Positions 28,442 through 32,545 of a stretch of DNA of 32,545 nucleotides are shown here, in pieces. A program made the translations under genes and the position numbers. Within the stretch, counting starts at the first letter, position 1; each line of letters opens with the position of its first letter. The notes beneath the pieces were generated by a model, which was given only the letters and a program-made list of their open reading frames with translations, was not told where the DNA came from and did not search any database. The stretch comes from Candidatus Thioglobus pontius. Lineage in GTDB: Bacteria; Pseudomonadota; Gammaproteobacteria; PS1; Pseudothioglobaceae. The stretch covers positions 1 to 32,545 of the forward strand of contig JACNGB010000018.1 in NCBI GenBank assembly GCA_014384345.1. The letters run 5' to 3'.

Positions 28442-29752
28442 TTGGAATTATTTGATCGTCAGAAAGATGCCGTTGGACAAGGTGAGCGAACCTTATTGGT
28501 GTATGTCGAGCTACCTTCAACGCGTAATATCCATAATGCCAAATCTGAATTTAAAGAATTGGCAGAATCTTCAGGTTTGGATATTGTAGATATCATTCAA
28601 GTTAATCGAAACTCTGCCTTAGCGCAATACTACATTGGTACAGGTAAGGTTGATGAGATTGCACAAATGGTTAAGGAGCTTGAGCTTGATTTGGTGATAT
28701 TCTCACCTGAGCTTTCTCCATCGCAAGAGCGTAATTTAGAAAAAACACTCGAATGTCAGGTGATGGATCGCACAGGGCTAATCCTAGATATTTTTGCGCT
28801 CAGGGCAAGTTCATTCGAAGGCAAGCTTCAAGTAGAGCTTGCGCAATTGCGTCACCTGTCCACACGTCTAGTTCGAGGTTGGACCCACTTAGAGCGACAA
28901 AAAGGTGGTATTGGACTACGTGGTCCGGGTGAAACCCAGCTTGAAACTGACAAGCGTTTGATCGCTGTACGCATTAAAAATATCACCAAGCGCCTAGACA
29001 AAGTGCATAAGCAGCGTGATTTGGGGCGTAAATCTCGAACTAAAAACGAATTACCCATGATTGCGTTAGCGGGCTATACCAATGCGGGCAAGTCTACTTT
29101 GTTTAACACACTGACAGATGCAGAAGTCTATGCACATGATCAGCTATTCGCAACACTAGACGCCACGATTAGACGTGTTATTTTGCCAGCGTCTGGTGAG
29201 GCTGTTATTGCAGATACAGTTGGTTTTATTCAAGACCTGCCGCATGATCTAGTTGATGCATTTAAATCAACCTTGGAAGAAACTAAGCGCTCTAATGTGT
29301 TGTTGCATGTTGTGGATAGTGCTGACGAATATAATGTTGAAAAAATTGACCAAGTTGAAGAGATTATTGAGCAAATTGGTGCAGGAGAAATCCCCAGTAT
29401 ATTGGTAATGAACAAAATAGATTGTCTTGAAAATTTTGCACCTCGCCTAGACCGGGATGAGTCAGGGCGTATTTACCGAGTGTGGATTTCAAGCAAAACT
29501 GGCGAAGGCATTGATTTGTTATATCAAGCACTAGCCGAGCAACTGAGTGGTATGATGACACGTGCACGAATTGAGCTTGATGTTATGAGTGCGTATATTC
29601 GTAGTGAAATCCACAATGTTGGCTATATCCACAACGAAAAGGTGGATGATTTTGGCCAGTGGATACTTGAAATTAACGTCACTCATCACTATTTATCTAA
29701 ATTATTAAACAAAAAAGGTGTCAAGTTGTTATGGGAACAAAGCCCGAAATAG
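28442..29752 (+). CDS. hflX: GTPase HflX
   Basis: A 436-residue ribosome-associated GTPase; in E. coli it splits stalled ribosomes during stress. The N-terminal HflX domain contains the glycine-rich GGIGLRGPGETQLETD (155-170), and the G domain has G1 GYTNAGKST (211-219), DTVGFIQDLPHDLV and NKID. The start is the TTG at 28442: an in-frame TAG lies at 28424-28426 and no ATG or GTG follows before homology begins. No Shine-Dalgarno is visible. Its end overlaps lon by 22 nt. In many genomes hflX is near hfq; here it is inserted between clpX and lon. Confidence 0.93.
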   Translation: MELFDRQKDAVGQGERTLLVYVELPSTRNIHNAKSEFKELAESSGLDIVDIIQVNRNSALAQYYIGTGKVDEIAQMVKELELDLVIFSPELSPSQERNLEKTLECQVMDRTGLILDIFALRASSFEGKLQVELAQLRHLSTRLVRGWTHLERQKGGIGLRGPGETQLETDKRLIAVRIKNITKRLDKVHKQRDLGRKSRTKNELPMIALAGYTNAGKSTLFNTLTDAEVYAHDQLFATLDATIRRVILPASGEAVIADTVGFIQDLPHDLVDAFKSTLEETKRSNVLLHVVDSADEYNVEKIDQVEEIIEQIGAGEIPSILVMNKIDCLENFAPRLDRDESGRIYRVWISSKTGEGIDLLYQALAEQLSGMMTRARIELDVMSAYIRSEIHNVGYIHNEKVDDFGQWILEINVTHHYLSKLLNKKGVKLLWEQSPK

Positions 29753-32067
29753 AAGAAATTGATTTAAAGCTTGAGAATGTTCCTCTGCTGCCTTTGAGAG
29801 ATGTTGTGGTGTTTCCGCATACGGTGATGCCGCTATTTGTTGGTAGAAAAACATCAGTTAACGCCATTACTCACGCTATGGCTGGCAGTAAATATATTTT
29901 CTTGGTCACTCAAAAAGATGACAAAGTAGAAAATCCACAATATGATGATTTGCATGAAGTTGGCACACTGGCCACTATTTTGCAAATGCTAAAACTACCT
30001 GATGGCACCATTAAAGTGCTGGTTGAAGGAGTGAAACGTGCCAAGGTTGAGGCTATCATTGACTTAGAAGAGTATAGTGAGGTTCAGCTCAGTGATTTGG
30101 CCCTAGCCTCAGAGGATGAAACTGAAGTTAAGGCGATGATGCGCCTAGCGCTCGAAAGTTTTGAAAAATACATTAAGTTGAACAAAAAAATTCCTGAAGA
30201 AGTATTAAAAATGCTTAAAGATGTTACGGATGTTGAGCGTTTTAGTGACGTGATTATTGCCAATTTGTCGCTCAAGGTCTCGGAAAAACAAGCGCTACTT
30301 GGTGGCAACCAAGCTCAGGAAAGATTAAATAAAATCTTAACCGTTATTCAAAGTGAAATCGAGGTGCTAGATACAGAGCACAAAATTCAATCGCGCGTTC
30401 GTAAACAAATGGAATCCAATCAGCGTGATTATTATTTGAATGAGCAAATGAAATCCATTCAAAAAGAATTAGGTAATGCTGAAGATGAAAATGAAATTGA
30501 GGAGTTGCAATTAAGTATTGATAAGGCAAAAATGCCTAAAGCAGCTAAAGAAAAGGCACAAAGCGAACTTAAAAAGTTATCGCGCATGTCGTCTCAATCA
30601 TCTGACGCTTCTATTATTCGCACCTATATTGAAAATTTATGCGACGTACCCTGGAAAAAGAAAACCATCATCAATAAAGACCTGAAAAAGGCGCAAAAAA
30701 TTCTTGATGATGATCATTATGGCTTGGATAAAGTTAAAGAGCGTATTTTGGAGCATTTAGCAGTACAAACCAGAGTATCTCATAATAAAGCCAATATCTT
30801 GTGTTTAGTGGGTCCACCGGGTGTGGGTAAAACTTCTTTGGGTGAGTCTATCGCCAAAGCGGTCAATCGAAAATACGTGCGTATGGCTTTAGGCGGCGTT
30901 CGTGATGAAGCCGAAATTCGTGGTCACAGACGTACTTATATTGGTGCCATGCCCGGCTCTATCGTGCAAAAAATGCAGAAAGTCAAAGTAAAGAACCCGT
31001 TATTTTTACTTGATGAAATTGAGAAAATGGCCAGTGATTATCGAGGTGATCCTTCATCAGCCATGCTTGAGGTGCTAGACCCTGAGCAAAATCATACCTT
31101 TAATGACCATTATTTAGAAGTTGATTATGACCTTTCGCAAGTGATGTTTGTCGCAACTGCCAACTCACTTGATTTGCCTCAACCATTGTTAGATAGGATG
31201 GAGATCATTGAATTATCTGGTTATACGGAAGATGAAAAGGTTCAAATTGCTAAGCGTCACTTAATTAAGCAAGCGATGGATAGTAACGGTATTAAGGCGG
31301 GTGAAATCAGTTTCAAAGATTCGGCTATTTTAAATATTATTCGTTATTACACCCGTGAAGCAGGTGTGCGTGGCCTTAATAGAACCATTAGCACTATTTG
31401 TCGTAAAGTGGTGAAAGAGGTGGTGCTTAAGAAGCGCAAAACCAAAGCTACCATTAGTGACAAGAATCTTGAAAAATATTTAGGCGTCAAGAAACATCGT
31501 TTTGGTTTGGCTGAAGAAAACAACCAAGTCGGTGAAGTAACTGGCCTGGCATGGACATCAGTTGGTGGCGATCTATTAACCATTGAGGCAACTGCTTATA
31601 AGGGCAAGGGTAAGCTTAACTATACTGGCCAACTAGGCGACGTCATGAAAGAATCCATTCAAGCGGCCATGAGTGTTACACGTACTCGCGCCGAGGAGTT
31701 GGGCATTGCTGATGATTTTCAAGATAAACTTGATATTCATATTCATGTGCCTGATGGCTCAACGCCAAAAGACGGCCCAAGTGCGGGCGCGGCAATGTGT
31801 ACAGCTTTGGTATCTGTACTTACAGGACGCAAGGTTAAGGCTGATGTGGCTATGACGGGTGAAATCACACTAAGAGGTGAGATCACACCAATTGGCGGCT
31901 TAAAGGAGAAGATGTTAGCAGCCCTTCGTGGTGGCATTAAAACCGTTATTATTCCTGATGATAACGAGCGTGAGTTGTCTGAAGTGCCTGAGAAAATCAA
32001 AGGCAAGCTTAATGTGATCAAAGTTAAGTGGATTGATGAAGTGTTAGATATTGCGTTAGAAAAATAA
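29731..32067 (+). CDS. lon: ATP-dependent protease Lon
   Basis: The homo-hexameric AAA+ serine protease of 778 residues (E. coli 784). The N-domain starts VPLLPLRDVVVFPHTVMPLF. A coiled-coil region follows (about 200-300), then the ATPase module with Walker A GPPGVGKT (361-368). The protease domain holds the Ser-Lys dyad at Ser684 (DGPSAGAAM) and Lys727 (GGLKEK). The start overlaps the hflX end, implying translational coupling. No terminator is evident in the 12 bp before the convergent DsrE-like gene. Confidence 0.97.
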   Translation: MGTKPEIEEIDLKLENVPLLPLRDVVVFPHTVMPLFVGRKTSVNAITHAMAGSKYIFLVTQKDDKVENPQYDDLHEVGTLATILQMLKLPDGTIKVLVEGVKRAKVEAIIDLEEYSEVQLSDLALASEDETEVKAMMRLALESFEKYIKLNKKIPEEVLKMLKDVTDVERFSDVIIANLSLKVSEKQALLGGNQAQERLNKILTVIQSEIEVLDTEHKIQSRVRKQMESNQRDYYLNEQMKSIQKELGNAEDENEIEELQLSIDKAKMPKAAKEKAQSELKKLSRMSSQSSDASIIRTYIENLCDVPWKKKTIINKDLKKAQKILDDDHYGLDKVKERILEHLAVQTRVSHNKANILCLVGPPGVGKTSLGESIAKAVNRKYVRMALGGVRDEAEIRGHRRTYIGAMPGSIVQKMQKVKVKNPLFLLDEIEKMASDYRGDPSSAMLEVLDPEQNHTFNDHYLEVDYDLSQVMFVATANSLDLPQPLLDRMEIIELSGYTEDEKVQIAKRHLIKQAMDSNGIKAGEISFKDSAILNIIRYYTREAGVRGLNRTISTICRKVVKEVVLKKRKTKATISDKNLEKYLGVKKHRFGLAEENNQVGEVTGLAWTSVGGDLLTIEATAYKGKGKLNYTGQLGDVMKESIQAAMSVTRTRAEELGIADDFQDKLDIHIHVPDGSTPKDGPSAGAAMCTALVSVLTGRKVKADVAMTGEITLRGEITPIGGLKEKMLAALRGGIKTVIIPDDNERELSEVPEKIKGKLNVIKVKWIDEVLDIALEK

Positions 32068-32079
32068 CAGCAAGTTTTA

Positions 32080-32376
32080 TTATGGTTTCATGTAGGTATA
32101 GCCACTTTCTTGTAGAGTAACGATGCGCATCAAACATCCTTGCACTTCAACAACGCCAGGCAAAAAATCAATGTACTGTTCACGTTGTGAATCAGCTTTA
32201 TCGGTGTAGTCTATGCCAGCACTGTATCTAATGCCGTCTTTAATCATGCGTTTGATGCGCTTTGAGTAATATTTAGTATCGGACTTCACCATGTTAAGCC
32301 CAGGGCCACAAGTAACAATTTCAACATTTACGTTATCTTTTCCGTAGAGATGCTGTAGATTATCTGCAGCATTCAT
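32080..32376 (-). CDS. DsrE-like protein (intact part of a broken reading frame)
   Basis: From Met 32376 the uninterrupted reading frame gives 98 residues resembling the DsrE/DsrF (YchN-type) fold: VNVEIVTCGPGLNMVKSD, RIKRMIKDGIRYSAG, then CLMRIVTLQESGYTYMKP. Family homology clearly continues upstream in the same frame (NIVIHVDLRGLKTQKLA), so 32376 is unlikely to be the original start. The cysteine that follows the 'FSAC' strand in DsrE and YchN is absent here (YSAGIDYTD). Members act in sulfur transfer; periplasmic examples of unknown role also exist. Convergent with lon. Confidence 0.7.
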   Translation of the reverse strand: MNAADNLQHLYGKDNVNVEIVTCGPGLNMVKSDTKYYSKRIKRMIKDGIRYSAGIDYTDKADSQREQYIDFLPGVVEVQGCLMRIVTLQESGYTYMKP

Positions 32377-32511
32377 GGCTAGCTTTTGAGTTTTTAATCC
32401 GCGTAAGTCAACATGAATGACAATATTATGCTTTTTAAGCGCATACGTGTTAAATACTGTAATGGCTACGATTAGCGCAATTAATATTTTGGGTCAAGAC
32501 AACTTAAGCAT
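32377..32511 (-). pseudogene. Interrupted N-terminal region of the DsrE-like gene
   Basis: Upstream of 32376 the frame stays open back to TGA at 32494-32496. Before that TGA comes ATG at 32509-32511, giving M-L-K-L-S-stop. After the TGA come PKILIALIVAITVFNTYA and KKHNIVIHVDLRG. Joined, this is a typical signal peptide (basic start, hydrophobic core, TYA cleavage end) followed by the first DsrE strand. No ATG, GTG or TTG occurs between the TGA and 32376. The gene is probably broken by a nonsense change, or the TGA is a read error or uses an unusual start. Confidence 0.6.
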
Positions 32512-32545
32512 GAATAAAAACCTGTTAAAGTACCGTCATGACAAT

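Follow-up and report, generated by a model that had tools for sequence, protein, structure and literature searches.

The in-frame TGA that seems to cut off the signal-peptide region of a DsrE-like gene at one end of a contig of Candidatus Thioglobus pontius is real as sequence and has an ordinary cause, an IS1595/IS1016-type insertion sequence in the gene. The element, of about 0.74 kb, was almost certainly inserted at codon 5 of dsrEb. This genome has a divergent pair of DsrE-like genes, of which dsrEb is the second. The window, by which is meant the whole stretch of DNA analysed (32,545 nucleotides), is the complete contig C7 (1-32545) of a draft assembly of 56 contigs (G000), and the ATG and TGA in question lie at a contig end because the window is that entire contig. 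Insertion of an element is an ordinary way for bacterial genes to break, and here the gene is DsrE-like, the element is of IS1595 type and the host is a Thioglobus-like bacterium. The case matters mainly as a caution for annotation: when an apparent in-frame stop lies within ~55 bases of the end of a draft contig, the first thing to test is whether a multicopy mobile element terminates there. Coordinates of the features are collected in Table 1.

Table 1. Features of the interrupted locus, in window coordinates (contig C7) unless a locus is named
Feature	Position	Strand	Basis
lon, convergent neighbour	29731..32067	+	Open reading frame; adjoins dsrE in relatives
DsrE-like gene dsrEb, disrupted, 3' part (all but the first codons)	32080..32490	-	Open frame, homologues, fold
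Target-site duplication, 8 bp, AAAATATT	32483..32490	-	Exact match in the C24 flank of the opposite element end
Element end, transposase-5' side, IS1595/IS1016-type	32491..32545	+	Shared contig ends; 50/55 against the G002 right end
Terminal inverted repeat GGGTCAAGACAACTTAAGC, 19 bp	32491..32509	+	18 bases found 20 times in G000
Probable transposase start codon and opening bases, truncated where the contig stops	32538..32545	+	Position as in G002
dsrEa, uninterrupted DsrE-like copy	L002:1486-1893 (C24)		Homologue of dsrEb

Repeated element ends in the draft genome and an intact congener

Read in frame on the minus strand from 32511, the codons are ATG CTT AAG TTG TCT TGA CCC AAA ATA TTA ATT GCG and onward, with the ATG at 32509-32511, the TGA at 32494-32496 and four sense codons between them. 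Below the TGA the frame is open for 137 codons, the next stop being the TAA at 32080-32082, and between the TGA and the ATG at 32376 it contains no ATG, GTG or TTG. The codon reading thus confirmed the ATG, the TGA and the uninterrupted frame after it that had been reported in the initial annotation. The same annotation had rightly set aside reassignment of the genetic code, TGA being a normal stop of rplD, rpmC and rplX (the only 3 of 33 genes checked). A recoded TGA, by selenocysteine or by a change of code, was rejected here as well, since the TGA belongs to the element rather than to the gene and TGA also ends those three genes.

The terminal repeat contains the minus-strand TGA together with the last base of the ATG. 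Its 18-bp core was found once in the window and 20 times in G000, all without mismatch in a search that allowed up to 2, and every occurrence lies beside a contig end; the reversed control pattern was found 0 times, which ruled out a chance repeat. Inward of the core, the sequence is of exactly two kinds, ten occurrences of each, and runs for 37 bases to the contig end (34 in two cases), and outward of the core all 20 sequences differ. Positions 32491-32545 are exactly common to 10 contig ends, two of them 3 bases shorter, and 10 others carry the opposite end, with 19 bp common to both end types. The two kinds mark the two termini of an insertion sequence present in many copies, and it was at these that the assembly broke. 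Contig C7 was broken 55 bases into the element because the element ends are identical between copies, and the 55-base overhang suggests that the assembler used k = 55. The premise that 32491-32511 is gene sequence fails; these bases belong to one end of a mobile element present in many copies, and chance (1 in 3) put its TGA in the reading frame of the gene.

A transposase search of G000 returned 0 matches and no contig of the draft contains the interior of the element, so its length and transposase were taken from a congener with a single-contig genome (G002), whose copies the one described here would resemble internally. The 19-bp motif (up to 2 mismatches) is present in 4 of the 12 genus genomes, G000 included. 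G002 has 7 intact copies of 740 bp, 6 of them flanked by exact 8-bp direct repeats, and the TGA is at the same place of the element in these copies, one base of the repeat being different from G000. The ends of the first G002 copy match the two G000 ends at 50/55 and 51/55, and its single open frame of at least 50 aa encodes an IS1595-family transposase of 229 aa, whose ATG is as far from the element end as 32538-32545 is in the window. The transposase of this one copy matched NF033547 (IS1595; E 3.4e-51) and PF12762 (E 2.3e-25), and gave no match to Zn_Tnp_IS1595 in Pfam at E<=1; DESYFG and HINGIE-FW motifs were recognised in it by eye. Two copies examined in another congener (G006; 731 and 630 bp) both lacked an exact 8-bp repeat. 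The closest plasmid-borne relatives of the G002 transposase were 58% identical (Hymenobacter) and then ~48-49% identical (Acinetobacter, several annotated ISAcra1). On contig C171 of G003, a dsrE homologue that is displaced from the usual locus has, ~0.2 kb downstream, a degenerate end of such an element with 2 mismatches (L004:1266-1284).

Target-site duplications and the probable junction with contig C24

Among the 10 opposite ends, only that on contig C24 has 8 bp identical to AAAATATT beside the terminal repeat, the nearest of the others being C9 with 1 mismatch. Across the draft, 7 of 10 end pairs share an exact 8-bp duplication and none shares exactly 7 or 9 bp; among non-partner flanks one pair agrees over 5 bp and one over 6 bp, and random flank positions in the same 100 pairings gave a mean of 0.0025 8-mer matches. 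For 3 of the 10 ends of each kind, no partner with the same 8 bp was found in G000 (C41, the start of C45 and C56 of one kind, and C9, C29 and the start of C37 of the other; loci L040, L041, L045, L029, L035 and L037). Such unpaired 3+3 ends might be expected if copies of the element recombined and thereby rearranged the chromosome. At 6 of the 20 element boundaries (L026, L027, L029, L031, L037 and L045) a frame without stops over at least 60 codons reaches the element, and therefore further genes besides dsrEb may be interrupted, such stop-to-stop frames being in themselves no proof of gene interruption.

C24 carries rsmB, then dsrEa and then the partner element end, and beyond dsrEa it holds the reverse complement of the window bases around the TGA. 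Its gene sequence runs up to the element as ATG AAA AAA ATA TT, and beyond the element the frame is taken up again on C7; when the two flanks were joined in a script, one open frame starting MKKIL resulted. A conserved N-terminal stretch had been expected, and 6 of 7 genus homologues indeed begin MKKILLS, that of G003 differing. Comparison of "codon 6" with the genus orthologues, as the initial annotation had proposed, found MKKILLS ahead of the stretch and no longer start of the form MLKLS-x-PKIL. The genes rsmB, dsrE and lon are contiguous in 6 of 11 congeners (G001, G004, G005, G007, G008 and G009), and this synteny supports the adjacency of C24 and C7, which, judged from the 8-bp duplication and gene order, very probably flank one and the same copy. 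Duplication, joined MKKIL frame and synteny together point to codon 5 of dsrEb as the place of the element.

The proposed course of events is that an IS1595 (IS1016-like) element of ~0.74 kb transposed into the fifth codon of the DsrE-like gene between rsmB and lon, its transposase acting on the 19-bp terminal inverted repeats by a chemistry that is presumed to be that of the family. The element would have been joined into an AT-rich target, and repair would have duplicated the 8 bp. The native ATG and first codons would then be on the far side of the element, on C24, behind the upstream paralogue dsrEa. The window side starts with element sequence, in which an ATG happens to occur and is followed five codons later by the in-frame TGA of the terminal repeat. 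Severed from its own start codon and from the region upstream of it, dsrEb has most likely lost its expression and its activity. The earlier suggestion of a recent pseudogene therefore names the likely outcome correctly and the cause wrongly, since the supposedly changed sense codon is made of bases that belong to the element end.

The DsrE-like proteins and their locus in the genus

Assignment of the gene as DsrE-like held both by family profile and by fold. A profile of 17 family members matched MTH1491 (1l1s) at E 9.2e-22; alignment A1 used 17 of 25 matches. Modelling with AlphaFold2 on 58 sequences (mean pLDDT 87.5, and 61-62 over the first 20 residues) placed a helix at residues 2-12, a first strand at 22-28 and a helix at 33-50 of the frame that follows the TGA, in agreement with the hydrophobic stretch and first beta strand that had been described from the sequence, and the dsrEb product is probably periplasmic. 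The modelled fold matched 1l1s (E 2.1e-8, TMt 0.88), and the DsrEFH chains of 2hy5 more weakly. Profile and fold thus agree in their relation to PF02635/MTH1491, whereas neither G000 copy matches PF02635 at E<=1: the window protein matched no Pfam and no NCBIfam family at E<=1, and its paralogue on C24 no Pfam family at that threshold. Four homologues with 29-38% identity to the window protein were scanned. Three of them matched PF02635 at E<=1, one exceeding the curated cut-off, one equalling it and one falling short of it. A single-sequence scan of the genome contigs with the window protein gave 29 pattern stretches and 0 relatives, and phages gave no match, whether searched by DNA or, with the C24 paralogue as query, by protein.

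A cysteine in the motif SAC-x-NT, which we take to be catalytic, is present in all 57 aligned homologues and is replaced by Gly in both dsrEa and dsrEb (alignment A2, comprising 57 of 80 kept loci, from 521 found, plus the window). Both proteins have Cys in CGPGL where the homologues have Tyr (53) or Phe (4), a count that is biased because the homologue search patterns allowed Tyr, Cys or Phe at the position before GPGL; the SAC cysteine lay outside the patterns. The remote match L022 is also without the SAC-x-NT cysteine, which marks this subfamily rather than the whole DsrE/DsrF-like family. The cysteine changes were not caused by the insertion, because the uninterrupted dsrEa has them too. 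In a tree from which 10 of the 57 homologues of A2 were left out, their contigs being equal in length to contigs already entered from the genus genomes, dsrEa and dsrEb were paired (99/97) as two of the longest branches, so that long-branch attraction may account for their pairing.

Among the 11 other members of the genus, 6 have one intact dsrE copy beside lon. In G002 (L184) the gene beside lon is reduced to its two ends, the 5' end being recognised by eye, and in G006 (L183:2314-2504) it is internally deleted (by eye), with only the last 51 residues matched in the search. No dsrE was found between rsmB and lon in G010 (L185) or in G003, the homologue of the latter being elsewhere, and in G011 the contig ends ~100 bases after lon and no dsrE homologue was found in the genome. 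The dsrE locus beside lon thus decays repeatedly in the genus, and several relatives have lost or damaged the gene there by routes other than the insertion described here.

The spacer between rsmB and dsrEa on C24 (L002:1258-1485) contains 24 codons, with one internal stop, that resemble the usual 3' end of dsrE in the genus, followed by what by eye is a terminator-like remnant. At the protein level, this stretch scored 70-84 against 7 of 7 relatives, and in each case none of 500 shuffles scored as high; against dsrEa its score was 51 and against dsrEb 48. At the nucleotide level it beat all shuffles in only 3 of 6 relatives (G001, G007 and G012, not G004, G005 and G008). The remnant suggests that an ancestral dsrE was replaced by the divergent pair dsrEa/dsrEb. 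A bolder proposal, to which we give little credence, is that the pair constitutes a DsrE-like variant that lost the conserved Cys, gained another 31 residues upstream (CGPGL) and took the place of the ancestral dsrE, with the element in dsrEb able to excise or absent from part of the population; if true, the number of working members of the pair would alternate between one and two. On the other side of dsrEb, the stops of lon and dsrEb are 12 bases apart, and these bases (32068-32079) hold no terminator-like site, the hairpin and T-run that follow dsrE or lon in relatives (by eye) being missing. G011 has a similar lon 3' flank, and there a hairpin with a T-run follows it.

Alternative explanations

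A point nonsense mutation, or a sequencing error, that turned a sense codon of the signal peptide into TGA was the explanation offered initially, and it would account for the open frame below the TGA and for the signal-like stretch that is intact there. Its probability is nevertheless close to nil. The bases around the TGA are the repeat found 20 times in the genome, the complete congener genome has that repeat with one base different and TGA at the same position of the element, and the orthologues of the genus start MKKILLS rather than with the longer sequence. No single base of a sense codon at "codon 6" was changed, ATG CTT AAG TTG TC(T/A) TGA being element end and identical in 10 of 10 such ends, and a sequencing error is untenable because 20 contig ends share one core. 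That an assembly chimera attached an unrelated repeat to the contig end is hardly more credible. The site does lie within the last 55 bases of a contig in a 56-contig draft genome, but the exact 8-bp duplication with C24 and the synteny argue against it, as does the same architecture in 6 other G000 pairs and in 6 of the 7 intact elements of the single-contig genome G002.

Two further readings accept the insertion. The downstream part of the gene could still be expressed, from the ATG at 32376 (98 aa) or from a rare ATT/ATA start, by way of an outward or internal promoter. Such expression would be allowed by an outward promoter, which the terminal repeats of an insertion sequence can provide, and one promoter-like pair lies at 32453-32425 (10/12 matches); promoter-like sites are, however, at chance level (2 in 31900-32545, shuffles having 2.5 on average), and the 98-aa product would begin at modelled residue 40, without strand 22-28, part of helix 33-50 and the signal peptide. 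The rare start suggested initially is superfluous, because the native ATG sits beyond the insertion on C24, and continued expression of the downstream part is judged very unlikely. A mixed population in which some cells have an empty site and an intact gene is compatible with the insertion, and the rest of the frame contains no other stop, which fits a recent event; the assembly has only the occupied state at C7 and C24, and we regard such a mixture as unlikely, though less far-fetched than the foregoing. Insertion of the IS1595/IS1016-type element into dsrEb is the preferred reading.

Comparison with known insertion sequences

A literature search whose coverage was without most subscription journals found no description of this insertion. 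In one account of the IS1595 family (PMC8101967), 8-bp duplications are usual, the IS1016 group is without the N-terminal Zn_Tnp_IS1595 domain, and the terminal repeats of Merlin elements, which are related to the family, begin with GG. The element described here agrees with the IS1595 family and IS1016 group in its transposase (that of the G002 copy), its 8-bp duplications, its GGGTCAAGACAACTTAAGC inverted repeats, which start with GG at both G000 ends, and its lack of a zinc-finger match. ISApl4, of the IS1016 group, is reported to be 712 bp long, with repeats beginning GGGG and A/T-rich 8-bp direct repeats, and its ends were mapped to many contigs of draft genomes (PMC12561309). The two elements are alike in a single DDE transposase without a zinc-finger match, with the DESYFG and HINGIE-FW motifs seen in that of G002, in A/T-rich 8-bp direct repeats, in the GG start, in length (740 bp in the G002 copy against 712 bp) and in having their ends scattered over many draft contigs. 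They differ in the terminal repeat, which is GGGTCAAGACAACTTAAGC (19 bp) here and GGGGCTGTACTAGA (14 bp) in ISApl4, and in the host, which here is a Thioglobus-like sulfur bacterium.
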